Below, piece by piece: positions 33,773 to 47,123 of a DNA stretch of 64,000 nt. The position numbers were made by a program, and so were the translations under genes. Source of the stretch: Euryhalocaulis caribicus (GTDB lineage Bacteria > Pseudomonadota > Alphaproteobacteria > Caulobacterales > Maricaulaceae). The stretch's first letter is position 1. Each line of letters begins with the position of its first letter. Under the pieces are notes generated by a model. The model was not told where the DNA came from and did no database searches. It saw only the letters and a list, made by a program, of their open reading frames with translations. Where the stretch lies: positions 1 to 64,000 of the forward strand of contig NZ_ASJA01000015.1 of assembly GCF_000412185.1 (NCBI RefSeq). The letters are read 5' to 3'.

Positions 33773-34689
33773 TGGCGCTGTTCTGGGTCATTTCATTGCT
33801 GGGCGCGGCCCTTGCCGGGTTGGCCTTCATCGCTCCGCTGGGACGCCGGCGGGGCGTGATGCCTGTTGCCGCCGCCATTGCCGGGGTCGTGGCGCTGGCG
33901 GTTCTGATTTACCTGCCGGGCGGCCGGCCCGGCATGGAGGGCGCGCCGTTCGCCGCCGCGCAGGCCGAGCGCGCCAGCCAGAACCCCGAAGAAATGACCG
34001 ATGAGGAGCGTTTCAAGCGTCTCGAGGACATGGTTGCCGAAACGCCTGAAGATCCGGCGGCGCTGCGTTTCTATGCGCGCGAGCTGTTGCGGCGGGAGCG
34101 GGCGCTTGAAGCGGTTGAAACCTATCGCGAGCTGGCGGGGATAGAGCCGACCGCCGCCAATTTCACCGAGATGGGCGAAGCGATCATCGTTCTCAACGAA
34201 GGGCAGTTGACCCCCGAGGCGCGCGCGGCGTTTCGCAGAGCGCTGACGCTGGACCCCCAAAGCCTCTCCGCCGCCTTTTATCTCGCCGCCGCCGATTATG
34301 ACGAGACGCCCAATGCCGAGACCGCTCTGGCGCTGGCCGAAACACCGGCCCGCGCGGCCGCGGACGATCCGCGAGGCGCGCAACTGGCCGCCGCCGCGGC
34401 AGCCCGGCTGACGCAACCGCGCATGGGGCCGCAAACCGGGGACGGCGCGCCGCCGCCTTCTGTCGAGGCAATGGTAGGCCGGCTGAAAACGCGCGCAGAG
34501 GCCAACCCCGACGATATCGGACTGTGGCTGTCGCTGGCGCGCGTGCAGAGCGTCACCGGGAACCGGGATGCGGCGCTTGGGGCGTTAAATGAGGCCCGGA
34601 TGCGGTTCGGCGACCGGTCCGGAGCGGCGCAGACAATAGAGGCTGTCCGCACGCAGATTGAGCGCGCGCCGGCGGAGAACGCCCGATGA
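33772..34689 (+). CDS. ccmI: Cytochrome c maturation protein CcmI
   Basis: A 305-residue membrane protein. Two N-terminal membrane segments (LFWVISLLGAALAGLAFIAPL and VMPVAAAIAGVVALAVLIYLPG) flank a short loop, and a periplasmic TPR domain follows (EDPAALRFYARELLRRERALEAVETYREL; WLSLARVQSVTGNRDAALGALNEA). CcmI binds apocytochrome c and delivers it to CcmF/H. In most alphaproteobacteria ccmE would come next, but here ccmF starts inside the ccmI stop (ATGA). Confidence 0.93.
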   Translation: MALFWVISLLGAALAGLAFIAPLGRRRGVMPVAAAIAGVVALAVLIYLPGGRPGMEGAPFAAAQAERASQNPEEMTDEERFKRLEDMVAETPEDPAALRFYARELLRRERALEAVETYRELAGIEPTAANFTEMGEAIIVLNEGQLTPEARAAFRRALTLDPQSLSAAFYLAAADYDETPNAETALALAETPARAAADDPRGAQLAAAAAARLTQPRMGPQTGDGAPPPSVEAMVGRLKTRAEANPDDIGLWLSLARVQSVTGNRDAALGALNEARMRFGDRSGAAQTIEAVRTQIERAPAENAR

Positions 34690-40631: not shown

Positions 40632-42028
40632 CGCAGCGTCGCGCGTTTCTACGCACGACGACCTTCCGCATCACCCTGCTGGCCGCGGGTCTTTTTGCGG
40701 TCTTCGTCTCCATCATCCTCGCCTATGTCTATTCGGCGACGGCGGGCGCCATGGCGCGCCAGGATTCGCGCGCCATCGAGACGCAGGCCGAAGACATGGT
40801 GCGCGCTTACCGGCGTTCCGGCCTGAATGGTCTGAACCGCATCGTGGTGGAGCGCAGCGTTGGCGCGTCCGAAGACCTCTATTTGCTGACCCGGCCCAAC
40901 GGACAGCGCATTTCCGGCAATCTCAGCGCCCTGCCGGAGGACCGGCCGGACGACGACAGCCAGTTCGGCTTTACCTACCAATATCCCACTGAAGACGATG
41001 AAACCGTCGAGCGCCGGGCCAAGGGGCGCATGGTGCGCCTTCTGGGCGGCTATCAGATTCTTGTCGGCCGCGATGTCGAGGAAAACGCCCGCTATGTGCG
41101 CCGCGTCACCGACGCCATCTGGACCGGGTCGGCGCTGGTTCTGGCGTTCGGTGTCCTTCTGGGCGGCTTTGTCAGCCGCCGTTTCGCCCAGCGACTGGAT
41201 GACCTGAACACGGTCGCGCGCGAGGTCACGGCCGGAAACCTCACCGCCCGCGCGCCCCGTAATCACTCCGGCGACGAACTGGATGAGCTGTCCGCCAATC
41301 TCAATGAAATGCTCGACCGGATCGAACGGCTGACCACCGGCCTGCGTCATGCCGGCGACTCCATCGCGCATGACCTTCGCTCGCCCCTGACCCGGTTGCG
41401 CAACCGCATGGAGGACAGTCTGCGGGAGGCGGAGCGGGGGGCCGATTGCCAGGAAGCCCTGCAACAGGCGCTGGATGACGCGGACGGCCTGCTGAACACG
41501 TTTGCTTCAGTCCTGAAAATTGCGCGGCTGGAAGCGGGGGAACGGCGGGAGCAGCTCTCCATCATCGATCCGCAGCAAATCATCGAGGACCTGGCCGAGC
41601 TTTATGAGCCGGTGGCCGAGGATTCCGGTCTGTCCTTCACCTCCGACATGGAGGAGGGGCTGACAATCCGCGCCGATCGCGGCCTGCTCTCGCAGGCGCT
41701 GGCCAACCTCCTCGACAACGCCATCAAGTATGCGCCGGAAGGCGAGGCCATCGCGCTTCGCCTGCGCAAGGCCAGCGACGGCCGCGCGGAGATTTCGGTG
41801 ACCGATACCGGGCCGGGCATACCCGCCGATGCGCGGGAGCGCGTGAAGAAGCGTTTCGTGCGGCTGGATGAATCGCGAAGCGCGCAAGGCTCGGGGCTCG
41901 GCCTAAGCCTGGTGCAGGCGGTGGCCGACATTCACGGGGCGGAATTCACCCTGGAAGACGGGCCGGGGTCCTCGACGCTGGAAGCGCCGGGACTGCGCGC
42001 CGTGCTGACCTTTCCCCGCGCGCGATAG
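40628..42028 (+). CDS. Sensor histidine kinase (partner of the degP-linked regulator)
   Basis: A 466-residue membrane kinase: N-terminal membrane segment (FRITLLAAGLFAVFVSIILAYVY), periplasmic sensor of about 120 residues, second membrane segment (WTGSALVLAFGVLLGGFV), HAMP, then the H-box RHAGDSIAHDLRSPLTRLRNRM and an ATPase domain (LANLLDNAIKYAP, DTGPGIPADAR, GSGLGLSLVQA). Overlaps the regulator by ATGA. FeuQ-like by position. Confidence 0.93.
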   Translation: MTQRRAFLRTTTFRITLLAAGLFAVFVSIILAYVYSATAGAMARQDSRAIETQAEDMVRAYRRSGLNGLNRIVVERSVGASEDLYLLTRPNGQRISGNLSALPEDRPDDDSQFGFTYQYPTEDDETVERRAKGRMVRLLGGYQILVGRDVEENARYVRRVTDAIWTGSALVLAFGVLLGGFVSRRFAQRLDDLNTVAREVTAGNLTARAPRNHSGDELDELSANLNEMLDRIERLTTGLRHAGDSIAHDLRSPLTRLRNRMEDSLREAERGADCQEALQQALDDADGLLNTFASVLKIARLEAGERREQLSIIDPQQIIEDLAELYEPVAEDSGLSFTSDMEEGLTIRADRGLLSQALANLLDNAIKYAPEGEAIALRLRKASDGRAEISVTDTGPGIPADARERVKKRFVRLDESRSAQGSGLGLSLVQAVADIHGAEFTLEDGPGSSTLEAPGLRAVLTFPRAR

Positions 42029-42073
42029 ACAATCCCCCTTGCGTCCTGCGCGCCGTCCGCCACCCTTGGGCGT

Positions 42074-44959
42074 ATGACGCATGCGCCTCTCCACAGCCTG
42101 ATCGCCGCCGCGCCCGAGCCGCATGATGCAGGGTTCGCCGACGACCTGCTTGGCGAACTCTCCATTGAAATTCCGGGCGGCGCGGAAGACCTGCTGCGCG
42201 GCGTCTTTGGCTGTTCCCCTTATCTTGCGCGCATTTGCCGGACGGACCCGCAGCTCCTTACCGACGTTCTGGAGCGCGCGCCGCAGGAATCCCTGGACGC
42301 GGCCCTTACGGCTTTCGCGCGCGCCGGGCGGATCGCCGAAGATGAGGACGCGCTGAACAGGGATCTGCGCGCCGCTAAGCGCCGGCTCCACCTGCTCGTC
42401 GCCCTCTCCGATATTGGCGGGATCTGGGATCTGGACGCGGTCAGCCGCGCGATGAGCGATGGCGCGGATGCAGCCATTCAGGCTGCGTTCCTGGCGCATG
42501 CGCGATTCATGGCGGAACGCGGACGCATTGCGGAAGACGCCGTGACGGATGAGGGGCTGGCGGGATTGTTCATCGTGGCGCTGGGCAAGCTCGGCTCCCG
42601 CGAACTCAATATTTCCAGCGATGTGGACCTGGCCGTATTCTTCGACCGTCAGCGCCTGCTGGATCTGGGTGTCGAGGAGCCGGGCCGGCTCTGCACCCGC
42701 CTGACCCGTCGCGCGGTGGGCGCGCTGGATGAACAGACGGCGGACGGCTATGTGGCGCGCGTCGATCTGCGCCTGCGGCCGGACCCGGCCTCGACCCCGC
42801 TGGCGCTGTCCGTTGAAGCGGCGGCCAATTACTATGAATCCTTTGCCCAGACCTGGGAGCGCGCGGCCTGGATCAAGGCGCGCGCCTGCGCCGGGGACAC
42901 CGTGACGGGGCAGGAATTCATGCGCCGCATGTTTCCCTTCGTCTGGCGGCGCTCGATGGATTACGGCGCGGTCGAGGAAATCGAAAATCTGATGCGCCAG
43001 ATCGAGGCGGCGGCCGGGCGGCATGACGAACCGGCCGGATTTGACCTGAAGCGCGGCCCGGGCGGCATCCGTCAGATAGAGTTTTTCGCCCAGACCCAGC
43101 AATTGCTGCATGGCGGGCGGGACGCTTCGCTGCGCACGCGCGCGACCTTGCCGGCGCTTGCCGCGCTGCGGGCGCGGGGTGATGTGGACGCCCGGACCGA
43201 AGCGCGTCTTCGTGAAATCTATGAGGCGCTGCGCATCACGGAAAACCGGCTGCAGATCATTGAAGACCAGCAAACCCATGACGCGCCGGAAGATGACGAC
43301 CGCCGCCGCCGTCTGGCGCGGTTGTGCGGCCGTGAATCGCTGGCGTCGTTCGATGCCTGGCTGGCCGGGGATACGGCGGCCGCGCGCGAGATTTGCGAAG
43401 GCCTGTTTGAACCGGTGGAGCGCGACCCGCGGGAGGCGGACCTGATTTTTGACGGGCCGGACCCGGCGGACGCCACGGTCAAACGCCTGAAAGAACTGGG
43501 GTTCAACAACCCCGAACAGGTCTGGGAGACTGTACGCGGCTGGCTGATCGGAAAGCCGCGCGCCACACGGTCCGAACGCGCCCGCCGGATCATGCGGGGG
43601 CTGGCCCCGCGCATCGTTCTGGCGGTCGCGGAGACCGGCCACCCCAATACGGCGTTCCTGCGGTTCTCGGAGTTTCTCAACGGCTTGCCCGCCGCCGTGA
43701 ACATCCTGTCGATGTTTGAGCGGGAGCCGAAATTGCTCACCGACATCGTGGACGCTCTGGGTCTGGCGCCGCGTCTGGCGAAATCGCTCGCTTCCCGTCC
43801 GGAAGCGCTGGAAGCCTTCGTGGCGCCGGGCGTAGACGCGCTGGAATTCGAGAACCTGCGCGAGGAAGCGCAGAAGGTCGTCGAGTCGGCGCGCGATTTC
43901 GAAGAAGCTCTGGACAATACCCGCCGTTTCGCCCGCGAAACTCTGTTGCGCGTGGGGATTGAAGCCCTGCGCGATCAGGCGGCGGCCGGGGAGGCGGGCC
44001 GCGCCCGCGTTCGCGTGGCGGAGGCGCTGGTCGCGGCTCTGCTCCCTTCCGTCCGGCGGGAGATAGAGCGGCTTTACGGCTATCTGGACGCCCGCGTCGC
44101 CCTGATCGGCATGGGCAGTTTCGGCGCGGGGGAAATGACCTACGCGTCCGATATTGACCTGATGATGGTGTATGAGGCGGGTGAACAGTCTGAATCCGTA
44201 GACGGTCCCCGCAGTCTGACGCCGGAGACCTGGTGCGCGCGCCTCATGCAACGTCTGGTCAGCGCGCTGTCGGTGGAAACCTCCGAAGGCCCGCTGTTCA
44301 ATGTCGATCTGCAATTGCGGCCTTCCGGCAATGCCGGGCCGGTGGCGGTGCGGCTGGGCGCGTTCCATCGCTACTACCAGCGGGAAGCCTGGACCTGGGA
44401 AATGATGGCGCTGACGCGCGCCAGAATGGTTGGCGGCGATCCCGCCCTGTCGGACGAGGTGGCCGATCTTTTGCGGAACCTGCTGCGGAGCAAGCGCGAT
44501 ACCCGCGAAACCGCGAAAGATGTCGCGGACATGCGCCGCCGCCTCTCGCGTGAAAAACCGTCCCGCGGCTATTGGGATCTGAAACGCGCGAAGGGCGGAC
44601 AGATCGATCTGGAGTTTACGGTCCAGTATCTCCAGCTAATTCACGCGCATGAAATCCCTGACGTCCTCAGCCCGTCGCTCTTCGAATCCCTGAACGCCCT
44701 GGCTGATGCGCACATCCTGACGCAGGAGGAAGCCGGTGCGATGGCGCACGCCGCGCGGCTGAATCTGGATCTGGGTCAGCTCTTCGCATTGGCGGTGGAA
44801 ACCCAGTTCGACCCTGAGACAGCGCCGGAAAAACTGAAAATGCGCGTGGTAAAAGCCAGCGGGGCCGACTCTTTCGCCGATCTGGAAGCCATGCTGGACC
44901 GTTACCGCCTCATGACGCGGCAGGCGTATGAACGCATTGTCCTATCCGCAGCCGGCTAG
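42074..44959 (+). CDS. glnE: Bifunctional glutamine synthetase adenylyltransferase/deadenylase
   Basis: A 961-residue enzyme that adds AMP to, and removes it from, glutamine synthetase in response to PII and glutamine. Both nucleotidyltransferase domains are evident: the N-terminal deadenylase region (LGKLGSRELNISSDVDLAVFF) near residue 180, and the C-terminal adenylylase region (MGSFGAGEMTYASDIDLMMVYE) near residue 685. Helical linkers carry PxxxRAxxxR-type segments. Length is normal. It follows the two-component pair in the order of Rhizobiales genomes. Confidence 0.97.
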   Translation: MTHAPLHSLIAAAPEPHDAGFADDLLGELSIEIPGGAEDLLRGVFGCSPYLARICRTDPQLLTDVLERAPQESLDAALTAFARAGRIAEDEDALNRDLRAAKRRLHLLVALSDIGGIWDLDAVSRAMSDGADAAIQAAFLAHARFMAERGRIAEDAVTDEGLAGLFIVALGKLGSRELNISSDVDLAVFFDRQRLLDLGVEEPGRLCTRLTRRAVGALDEQTADGYVARVDLRLRPDPASTPLALSVEAAANYYESFAQTWERAAWIKARACAGDTVTGQEFMRRMFPFVWRRSMDYGAVEEIENLMRQIEAAAGRHDEPAGFDLKRGPGGIRQIEFFAQTQQLLHGGRDASLRTRATLPALAALRARGDVDARTEARLREIYEALRITENRLQIIEDQQTHDAPEDDDRRRRLARLCGRESLASFDAWLAGDTAAAREICEGLFEPVERDPREADLIFDGPDPADATVKRLKELGFNNPEQVWETVRGWLIGKPRATRSERARRIMRGLAPRIVLAVAETGHPNTAFLRFSEFLNGLPAAVNILSMFEREPKLLTDIVDALGLAPRLAKSLASRPEALEAFVAPGVDALEFENLREEAQKVVESARDFEEALDNTRRFARETLLRVGIEALRDQAAAGEAGRARVRVAEALVAALLPSVRREIERLYGYLDARVALIGMGSFGAGEMTYASDIDLMMVYEAGEQSESVDGPRSLTPETWCARLMQRLVSALSVETSEGPLFNVDLQLRPSGNAGPVAVRLGAFHRYYQREAWTWEMMALTRARMVGGDPALSDEVADLLRNLLRSKRDTRETAKDVADMRRRLSREKPSRGYWDLKRAKGGQIDLEFTVQYLQLIHAHEIPDVLSPSLFESLNALADAHILTQEEAGAMAHAARLNLDLGQLFALAVETQFDPETAPEKLKMRVVKASGADSFADLEAMLDRYRLMTRQAYERIVLSAAG

Positions 44960-45026: not shown

Positions 45027-45509
45027 ATGGAAAAGGCAATCTTGTTGGGCGCGGCGAGCGCCATTCTTCTGGCCGCGGGCGCGGCGCAGGCGGCCGGACC
45101 GCGCGGTCATCATGGACACGCGGGCGGCGGCATCATGCTGAAAGCGGCCGACGCCAATGGCGACGATGCGGTAACGCAGGAAGAAGCCGCCTCCCTGCAG
45201 CAGGAAATGTTCGCCTGGATGGACCGTAACGGCGATCAGGTTCTGGACGACGCGGACCAGTCGCCGGTCATGCAGCGCCTCAAGGCAATGCGCGAGGACA
45301 GCGAAGACGGCGACGAGCCACGCCGTCAGCGTGATCGCGAGATTGACGCAAATGACGATGGCCAGGTGACCTGGGCCGAGTATTCAGCGCATCATCAGGC
45401 GCGGTTTGCCGAAATGGACGCCAATGACGACGGGCAGGTGACCATGGAAGAAGCCAAGGAAAACATGCCCGACCGCCGCAAGCGTTTCTTCAAGCGCGGT
45501 GACCGCTAG
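45027..45509 (+). CDS. Exported EF-hand protein
   Basis: A 160-residue periplasmic protein with a signal peptide (LLGAASAILLAAGAAQAA), a His/Gly-rich segment (RGHHGHAGGG) that might bind metal, and four EF-hand-like loops: DANGDDAVTQEE, DRNGDQVLDDAD, DANDDGQVTWAE and DANDDGQVTMEE. Loops 1, 3 and 4 have the full Ca2+-ligand pattern; loop 2 ends in D in place of E. It is 41 bases ahead of the proposed start of an ECF sigma factor gene and is probably in the same operon. Confidence 0.9.
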   Translation: MEKAILLGAASAILLAAGAAQAAGPRGHHGHAGGGIMLKAADANGDDAVTQEEAASLQQEMFAWMDRNGDQVLDDADQSPVMQRLKAMREDSEDGDEPRRQRDREIDANDDGQVTWAEYSAHHQARFAEMDANDDGQVTMEEAKENMPDRRKRFFKRGDR

Positions 45510-45550
45510 GGCCGCAATCGCTGACGCGCTTCGAGAGGAGAGACAGTCCT

Positions 45551-46111
45551 ATTCGCGATCACGACGCGTCTCTTCTCTCCCGCGCCGCGGCGGGCGACCG
45601 TCGCGCGGCGGCGGACCTGGTGTCCGCCCATACGCCGCGCCTGATGGCGCTCGCCCGGCGCATGCTGCGTGACGAAGCCGAGGCGGAAGACGTGGTGCAG
45701 GAGAGTTTCATCCGTCTGTGGCGCATGGCGCCGAACTGGCGTTCCGGCAAGGCGCGGCTGTCCACATGGATGCACCGTGTCGCGCTCAATCTTTGTTATG
45801 ACCGCTTGCGCAAGGCCAGACCGGTTGATGAGGAAGCGCCCGACATTGCCGATGACGCGGATGGTCCCGCGCAGGCGCTGCATCAGAACCAGCTTTCGGC
45901 GCGCGTTCACAGCGCCATTCAGAACTTGCCGCCCCGGCAGCGCGCGGCCATCGCCCTCTGCCACTTTGAGGAAATGAGTAATATCGAGGCCGCCGAGATT
46001 CTGGAAATCAGCGTCGAGGCCGTGGAATCGCTGCTTTCCCGGGCCCGCCGCGCCCTTAAAGCCTCGCTCGCCGCAGAGGCGGGCGCCTGGATGGAGAGAA
46101 TGGAGCCATGA
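45551..46111 (+). CDS. ECF-type RNA polymerase sigma factor, apparent ATT start
   Basis: Region 2 (DVVQESFIRLWRMAP; STWMHRVALNLCYDRLRK) and region 4 (IQNLPPRQRAAIALCHFEEMSNIEAAEILEISVEAVESLLSRARRAL) are clear. The first canonical in-frame start is GTG at 45620, but that would remove the conserved ECF N-terminus. The frame upstream, with no stop, encodes RDHDASLLSRAAAGDRRAAA, which is exactly what such sigma factors have. Its best start is ATT at 45551, ten bases after a strong GAGAGGAG (45533-45540). No in-frame ATG, GTG or TTG exists there. Coupled to the probable anti-sigma gene by ATGA. Confidence 0.85.
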   Translation: MRDHDASLLSRAAAGDRRAAADLVSAHTPRLMALARRMLRDEAEAEDVVQESFIRLWRMAPNWRSGKARLSTWMHRVALNLCYDRLRKARPVDEEAPDIADDADGPAQALHQNQLSARVHSAIQNLPPRQRAAIALCHFEEMSNIEAAEILEISVEAVESLLSRARRALKASLAAEAGAWMERMEP

Positions 46112-46551
46112 TGATCCGCAAGACCCTCACGCCGGAACGGGCCAGAGCCATCCTGGAGGCCTATGGCGCCGAGCCCGCCCGCTGGCCGGCGGCCGAACGC
46201 CGCGCCATGCGCCGCGCGCTCAAGGGCGACGCCGATCTACAGGCGGCGGCGCGTGAAATGGCGGCCCTGGATGCGGTTCTGGCGACGGATCGTCCCGGCC
46301 GCGATGTCCCGGCGCTGGAAGCGCGCATTCTCGCCGCCGCGCCAGCTCCGGCGGCGGTTTCGAATCCGTTCGCAAGCCGGCGCCAGATTCCCGCATTTGC
46401 GGCCGCAGCGGCGCTGATGGTCGGATCTCTGGCCGGTTTCGGCGGGGCGCTGGTTTCTCCGCAGGCGTCCGACCCTGCGGCTGATGTTATCGCCAATGCG
46501 TTCGCCAATCCGGACGCGGTCTTTGAAATTGAACTGGATGCTGAGGTCTGA
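46108..46551 (+). CDS. Probable anti-sigma factor, single-span membrane protein
   Basis: A 147-residue protein with a cytoplasmic N-terminal part (TPERARAILEAYGAEPARWPAAERRAM, followed by ALDAVLATDRPG), one membrane segment (IPAFAAAAALMVGSLAGFGGALV) and a short periplasmic tail. The Glu-Pro-x-x-W-P-x-x-E-R motif is common in small proteins encoded with ECF sigma factors. It overlaps the sigma gene by ATGA. Anti-sigma function is inferred from topology and context. Confidence 0.7.
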   Translation: MMIRKTLTPERARAILEAYGAEPARWPAAERRAMRRALKGDADLQAAAREMAALDAVLATDRPGRDVPALEARILAAAPAPAAVSNPFASRRQIPAFAAAAALMVGSLAGFGGALVSPQASDPAADVIANAFANPDAVFEIELDAEV

Positions 46552-46553
46552 GA

Positions 46554-47123
46554 ATGAGCGGATTTCGATTGACGCCCCTGACCGGGCTGCTGCTGGCCTC
46601 GCTGCTGATCAATGGCGTGTTTCTGGGCATGGCGATTGCCGACCGTCTGGACGGGCCGCGGCGCGGGCCGCCCGAACACATGGACCGCACCTCCTTCGTC
46701 ATTGGCGCGTTCCTTCGCGCCGCGCCGGAAGACAAGCGCGAGGCGATGGAGGATGAAATCCGCGCGCATTTCCGGGAAGCCATGGCGACGCGGCGGCGCG
46801 TCTGGGAGGCGCAGAAGGATGTCTATGCGGCGCTGGTGGCGGATCCGTTTGACCGGCCGCGCGCAGAAGCGGCGCTGGAAGCGGCGCGTGAGGCGGGCCT
46901 GCTGGTCGACGTGAAGGGGCACGAAATCATGCTCGACCTCGTGGAGGATCTGGATGCGGAGACGCGCAAGAAGGCGCTGGAAGCCGGCTTTGGCGGTGAT
47001 TTCCGCAAGCGCATGCACCGCGGCGGGCCGCGCCGCCACGAACGCGGCCATGATGGCGGACCTACCGAAGGCCCGCCGCCGGAAGGTCCCCGTCCTGACG
47101 GTCCCCCGCCGGACCGTCGCTAA
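46554..47123 (+). CDS. Periplasmic heavy-metal sensor-like protein (CnrX/ZraP/CpxP type)
   Basis: A 189-residue protein with an N-terminal membrane anchor (LTGLLLASLLINGVFLGMAIA) and a helical periplasmic hook-like domain (SFVIGAFLRAAPEDKREAMEDEIRAHFREAM; RRRVWEAQKDVYAALVADPFD). The tail is rich in His, Arg, Gly and Pro (MHRGGPRRHERGHD). CnrX-like proteins sense metal and work through a membrane anti-sigma factor, which fits its place two bases after the anti-sigma gene. Ends in a CTAA shared with the convergent kinase gene. Confidence 0.85.
   Translation: MSGFRLTPLTGLLLASLLINGVFLGMAIADRLDGPRRGPPEHMDRTSFVIGAFLRAAPEDKREAMEDEIRAHFREAMATRRRVWEAQKDVYAALVADPFDRPRAEAALEAAREAGLLVDVKGHEIMLDLVEDLDAETRKKALEAGFGGDFRKRMHRGGPRRHERGHDGGPTEGPPPEGPRPDGPPPDRR

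Follow-up and report, generated by a model that had tools for sequence, protein, structure and literature searches.

The ECF σ factor gene of the window, a 64,000-nucleotide stretch of the Euryhalocaulis caribicus genome, is best read as beginning at an ATT codon (45551–45553, + strand), an assignment that is well supported by comparison with relatives. The codon lies behind a strong Shine-Dalgarno (SD) sequence (GAGAGGAG, 45533–45540, +) that is predicted to be paired with the first codons of the gene. Non-canonical start codons are already known in sigR, infC and pcnB; what is new here, in work that is computational throughout, is AUU/AUC initiation in an alphaproteobacterial σ family together with a candidate hairpin that hides the SD. 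Among the best matches listed from the open-licence literature, no alphaproteobacterial σ gene started by AUU or AUC was reported.

The explanation that we consider moderately probable is that IF3-limited and hairpin-throttled translation from AUU 45551 keeps the σ factor below its putative anti-σ factor. Within this explanation, the position of the start, the recurrence of AUU/AUC and the stronger adjacent SD are supported by sequence comparison, the hairpin is a folding prediction, and we infer IF3 control, low output, the σ/anti-σ stoichiometry and an opener of the hairpin.

The start codon of the σ gene

The σ gene (45551–46111, +) ends in TGA and is of the SigV type by its neighbour. Its product contains both of the domains that characterise ECF σ factors, region 2 (Sigma70_r2, PF04542, E 2.5e-22) and region 4 (PF08281, E 4.6e-16), and the NCBIfam model PRK05602 matches above its cut-off from residue 2 of the ATT-started protein. 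Alignments to the two top-scoring solved structures (6in7 and 8z6g), and to CnrH (4cxf), start with query residue 3 against chain residue 5 or 6, so that the protein would be expected to begin close to the residue encoded by the ATT.

An earlier note on this DNA had proposed that the N-terminus is encoded upstream of the first canonical codon, and this was confirmed: the frame is intact and open from stop to stop (45503–46111), and it contains no ATG, GTG or TTG ahead of the GTG at 45620–45622 (+), which is codon 24 of the gene. The SD that the note had placed ten bases ahead of the ATT was likewise recovered, and the anti-SD pairing score is −8.8 kcal/mol for ATT 45551 versus −5.0 kcal/mol for GTG 45620, where the pairing stems from a CGGCGGC run. 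A start at the GTG was rejected, as it has the weaker SD and costs 23 conserved N-terminal residues, including G15 and A19, which are invariant in a 13-sequence alignment (A1). The lost residues lie ahead of the Pfam region 2 match, which begins at residue 23, and the region 2 model would therefore survive such a truncation. CTG 45521, a near-cognate codon within the open frame, was also rejected, falling outside the two best-scoring non-canonical candidates listed.

Relatives of the σ factor were found in 120 of the 137 family genomes (E 1e-25 or better, one match per genome), and 128 loci were compared, comprising 104 of these 120 matches and 24 loci from the order. The codon homologous to ATT 45551 is ATG in two relatives that are 57–58% identical (L012 and L013) and in five further named loci (L136, L138, L142, L150 and L152), and is TTG in L015 and L135. 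Because some homologues have ATG at this codon, the position of the start is fixed, and the assignment to ATT made in the earlier note is well supported, even though ATT itself is known at this codon from one genome. The only other genome of the same genus (L035) has GCC here, and its likeliest start is a GTG seven codons upstream of the homologous position, with no clear SD. Two patterns had been named as arguing against the ATT, namely homologues that all begin at the GTG position or that all have ATG at the 45551 codon; neither was seen among the homologues read, some of which have the ATG whilst the same-genus locus does not. Across 127 loci the modelled starts are 63 ATG, 30 GTG, 17 TTG and 17 ATH.

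Recurrence of ATT and ATC starts

ATC behind an SD is present in all six genomes of Oceanicaulis (g14), in both genomes of g15 and in the single genome of g13. In these three genera the codon is followed by the N-terminal motif RPxLxVIxG, in a looser form in g15, and preceded by AGGGAGG, AGGGAG, GGGGAGGG or CGGAGA. When aligned by the same motif, the loci of g4 and g10 carry ATG or GTG at or beside the ATC codon. ATG, GTG and ATC at one homologous codon would form a natural series for testing start-codon control. A separate lineage (G123, locus L064) has ATT behind AGGGGAGA.

Conservation in the five ungapped Oceanicaulis sequences rises towards the proposed signal, with pairwise identity of 0.34 at −60 to −31, 0.49 at −30 to −14, 0.94 in the SD and 1.0 at the ATC. 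After the ATC identity is 0.90 and codon positions 1 and 2 are more conserved than position 3, a coding-type bias that is absent ahead of the ATC in these five sequences. The nine ATC starts have stronger SDs than a set of fifteen ATG/GTG starts at the homologous position, of which g4 supplies 14 and g10 one (p 1.7e-4, uncorrected for relatedness). On a tree of the 128 proteins the ATT/ATC label requires four changes, which may be gains or losses, and at least three of these are forced by well supported branches.

An SD scoring −8 or better precedes 335 of 18560 internal codons (1.8%) in the 128 loci. For ATT and ATC codons taken together, 11 of 696 internal positions have such an SD, compared with 11 of 83 in the start region (Fisher p 2.8e-6, from counts that are not independent because the sequences are related). 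These 11 start-region hits are not identical to the 11 loci counted as ATT/ATC starts (L005, which is the window, L039, L041, L045, L050, L053, L064, L083, L087, L088 and L095), since they include L104, which was not counted as a start, and lack L095. In three of the 11 counted loci (L005, L039 and L041) there is no ATG, GTG or TTG between the upstream stop and the conserved region; the others have a GTG or TTG well upstream, or, in L050 and L095, a TTG that follows within a few codons, and the ATT/ATC start in these eight loci rests on alignment and on the SD. The features known from sigR and infC, a start codon other than ATG, GTG or TTG behind a strong SD, are recognised here by sequence and comparison only.

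Six other non-canonical picks of the start model (L011, L042, L069, L104, L127 and L131) were set aside, as a canonical codon was available or the SD was weak. At another locus that was not counted (L133, G111:C38) CTG is the sole near-start codon; the frame opens immediately behind the stop codon of the EF-hand frame upstream, which leaves only three codons ahead of the conserved region.

The gene for IF3 itself appears to use a related start. A PF00707 match was obtained in 10 of the 11 genomes searched, with none found in G003, and the start region could be read in seven of these ten loci (L215, at G000:C13, L222, L223, L225, L227, L228 and L230), the search motif having missed the other three. 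In all seven, infC apparently starts at ATA behind GGAG or AGGAG, and all seven come from genomes with an ATT/ATC σ start, the genome of the window among them. These genomes thus apparently employ AUH initiation.

A predicted hairpin over the Shine-Dalgarno sequence

The ribosome-binding site had been described in the earlier note as good, which is true of the strength of the SD but not of its predicted accessibility, as folding places it almost entirely within a 12-bp hairpin (including one G-U pair). The 5’ arm (45533–45544, +) covers the SD, the 3’ arm (45568–45579, +) lies in codons 6–10 of the σ gene, and ATT 45551 sits in the loop; the mean predicted probability that the SD is unpaired, P(unpaired), is 0.003. 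Two rare codons contribute to the 3’ arm, TCT (5.6% of Ser codons in the window) and CTT (11.8% of Leu codons), along with CTC, a less common one (14.6%). Synonymous resampling of codons 2–24 with window codon usage produced a 12-bp helix once in 2000 trials and equally low accessibility in none of 300, codon permutation matched the hairpin in none of 100, and the window came 2 of 200 when only the codon usage of the σ gene was applied; these p-values are post hoc, as the tests were prompted by a hairpin that had already been spotted. Folding of the region as a whole is predicted to be moderately unusual against dinucleotide shuffles (z −2.3, 4 of 200 as low), as is that of a longer stretch (z −2.7, 3 of 200 as low).

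Among 44 gene models of the window, which are proxy open reading frames and may include the GTG-started σ frame, one has an SD that is equally hidden, and the median P(unpaired) is 0.38. Strongly hidden SDs are also predicted for the gene models at 33859 (+) and 6665 (+), with P(unpaired) of 0.000 and 0.017 respectively.

A stem is also predicted in five Oceanicaulis genomes, where UGUCAGGG, in the SD region, is paired to CCCUGACA/G within the coding sequence. The nine outer pairs persist in all five genomes, two of them despite a change on one side; further in, several pairs are lost in one or two of the sequences, and no compensatory changes or covariation occur among the five. The Pro codon within the stem is CCT in all five, against 2 of 36 other Pro codons of these genes, and the five SDs rank 0, 1, 5, 16 and 20 of 200 for hiding amongst synonymous variants. 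In the sixth Oceanicaulis genome (L087) the SD is not hidden (P(unpaired) 0.37, rank 64). In L087 and L095 it is the ATC start region, rather than the SD, that the folding prediction places within a long GC-rich stem or at its margin. Across the family, the SD is unusually hidden (p ≤ 0.025) in 10 of 127 loci, four of them ATT/ATC loci, where 3.2 are expected; a family-wide hairpin is thus unsupported, and the structure would be limited to certain lineages at most.

Sequestration of the SD by pairing is familiar from the mRNAs of other σ factors, such as the RNA thermometers and SD-sequestering leaders of rpoH and rpoS, and the SD hairpin of rpoS is opened by small RNAs. The stem in the window differs from these leaders in being nearly perfect and predicted to be stable to 65 °C, with P(unpaired) for the SD of 0.0017 at 28 °C, 0.0056 at 45 °C and 0.03 at 65 °C. 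The SD is therefore predicted to be sequestered as in a thermometer, without opening in the physiological range, and a simple RNA thermometer is ruled out by the predicted melting. Since the hairpin is shut even at 65 °C in the model, translation would be nearly abolished at equilibrium. As long as the 3’ arm is still to be transcribed the predicted P(unpaired) is 0.58, and it falls to 0.003 afterwards; as melting is not predicted, this leaves co-transcriptional loading of the ribosome or a trans-acting opener.

A rival reading has a different emphasis, in which the hairpin is an active switch, opened by a small RNA, by a protein or during transcription, and AUU merely sets a floor. We regard this as possible, though doubtful: the calculated loss of accessibility upon completion of the 3’ arm and the presence of the stem in the five Oceanicaulis genomes both favour it, whilst no trans-acting partner is known, no Rfam family matched in 45300–45800 (best E 2.3), and the predicted insensitivity to heat argues against it.

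The locus, its precedents and a proposed mechanism

The σ gene is flanked upstream by a CaBP-like EF-hand gene (45027–45509, +; Pfam) and downstream by a putative anti-σ gene (46108–46551, +) that overlaps the σ stop codon in an ATGA. The latter matches NCBIfam NF052375 at E 5.9e-9, below the cut-off, matched no Pfam family, and is followed by a Metal_resist (PF13801) membrane protein (46554–47123, +; E 1.2e-22). In a pattern search, an open reading frame with an EF-hand pattern ends upstream of the σ gene in 121 of 128 loci, and the σ stop is part of an ATGA in 78 of the 128 and of a GTGA in 16. A downstream protein with a hydrophobic segment and a YG..RWP..ER-like motif, named from the printed sequences, is present in 10 of 12 printed loci, the window included; in L035 and L013 the script chose another frame. 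Relatives of the σ locus were found in Phenylobacterium (L135) and Asticcacaulis (L140). In these two, a candidate anti-σ factor with one hydrophobic segment also adjoins the σ gene.

The EF-hand, ECF σ and putative anti-σ genes form a conserved locus that is probably orthologous to cabp-sigV of Caulobacter, in which a periplasmic EF-hand gene likewise lies directly upstream of an ECF σ gene. In Caulobacter, sigV is served by a separate promoter that lies within cabp, 87 nt ahead of the start codon of sigV, the two genes are reported to give monocistronic transcripts, and the anti-σ factor of SigV is left open (PMC13171946). An unusual start codon or a hairpin, as proposed for the window, is not mentioned in the part of that paper available here, and it names no anti-σ factor there (PMC13171946), whereas a candidate adjoins the σ gene in the window; the conserved locus thereby offers a candidate anti-σ factor for the SigV system.

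The closest precedent for the start itself is Streptomyces sigR, which begins at GTC behind an extensive ribosome-binding site and is repressed by IF3, and whose regulon becomes constitutive when a canonical codon is introduced; its anti-σ factor RsrA is reported to be in excess (PMC5472188). The same paper makes the point that start prediction relying on ATG, GTG and TTG misplaces such starts (PMC5472188). From the portion of the paper available, sigR-rsrA resembles the σ gene of the window in its non-canonical start, its extensive ribosome-binding site, its ATGA overlap with the anti-σ gene and the conservation of the start within a genus (PMC5472188). It differs in using GTC rather than ATT or ATC, in belonging to an actinomycete, in having a zinc-containing redox anti-σ factor and in resting on experiments, where the start in the window rests on sequence comparison; an SD hairpin, predicted in the window, is not mentioned in that portion (PMC5472188). 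AUU initiation as such is documented for E. coli infC and pcnB, with IF3 discrimination and autoregulation in the case of infC (PMC9410913), though neither gene encodes a σ factor.

By analogy with sigR, the σ gene may be under IF3 control, and the suggestion in the earlier note that a poor start codon provides low-expression control is plausible, sigR being a direct precedent. That a similarly weak start is found in several relatives suggests that a very low output of σ factor would be deliberate. In the mechanism that we favour, the σ factor would be translated from AUU 45551, where initiation would be disfavoured by IF3, and pairing of the SD with codons 6–10 would allow very little σ factor per transcript, in this genome and in Oceanicaulis. 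The strong SD would have two roles, compensating for the weak codon and forming one arm of the throttle. The putative anti-σ factor, encoded by the ATGA-overlapping gene, could then be made in excess, and the ECF regulon would stay off until an envelope or calcium signal frees the σ factor. Recurrent AUU/AUC starts in one σ family, kept wherever relatives permit a comparison, could turn the single case of sigR into a more general means of setting the σ/anti-σ ratio.

A broader version, that a double translational lock of an IF3-discriminated AUU/AUC and an SD hairpin with the first codons has evolved repeatedly in this envelope/calcium-stress ECF σ family, is put forward tentatively and seems rather unlikely. 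If true, σ output would report the state of the ribosome and IF3, or co-transcriptional folding, in addition to the signal received by the anti-σ factor.

Neutral drift is an unlikely competitor: the ATT would have arisen without regulatory consequence and been rescued by the strong SD, and the hairpin would form by chance between an SD rich in purines and codons rich in pyrimidines. Start codons do vary across the 127 modelled loci, most of which do not have an unusually hidden SD. Against this, all nine genomes from the three genera retain ATC, where a single substitution would bring back ATG, the combination of weak start and strong SD recurs in separate lineages, and the hairpin is built from rare codons. 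A sequencing or assembly error masking an ATG at 45551 is very improbable; ATT at this codon is known from one genome and L012 and L013 have ATG, yet the frame is intact, and the hypothesis is made less likely by ATC or ATT at the likely starts of ten other genomes. Initiation at GTG 45620 or CTG 45521 can be given hardly any weight, since the merits of a canonical codon with an undamaged Pfam domain, or of a near-cognate in the open frame, are set against the loss of residues 1–23 and the weaker SD in the first case and, in the second, added residues that by eye are unlike those of L013 or L035.

Further upstream in the window, an 821-residue open frame (41903–44368, − strand) runs antisense to a 961-residue open reading frame (42074–44959) and probably merely shadows coding sequence of high GC content.
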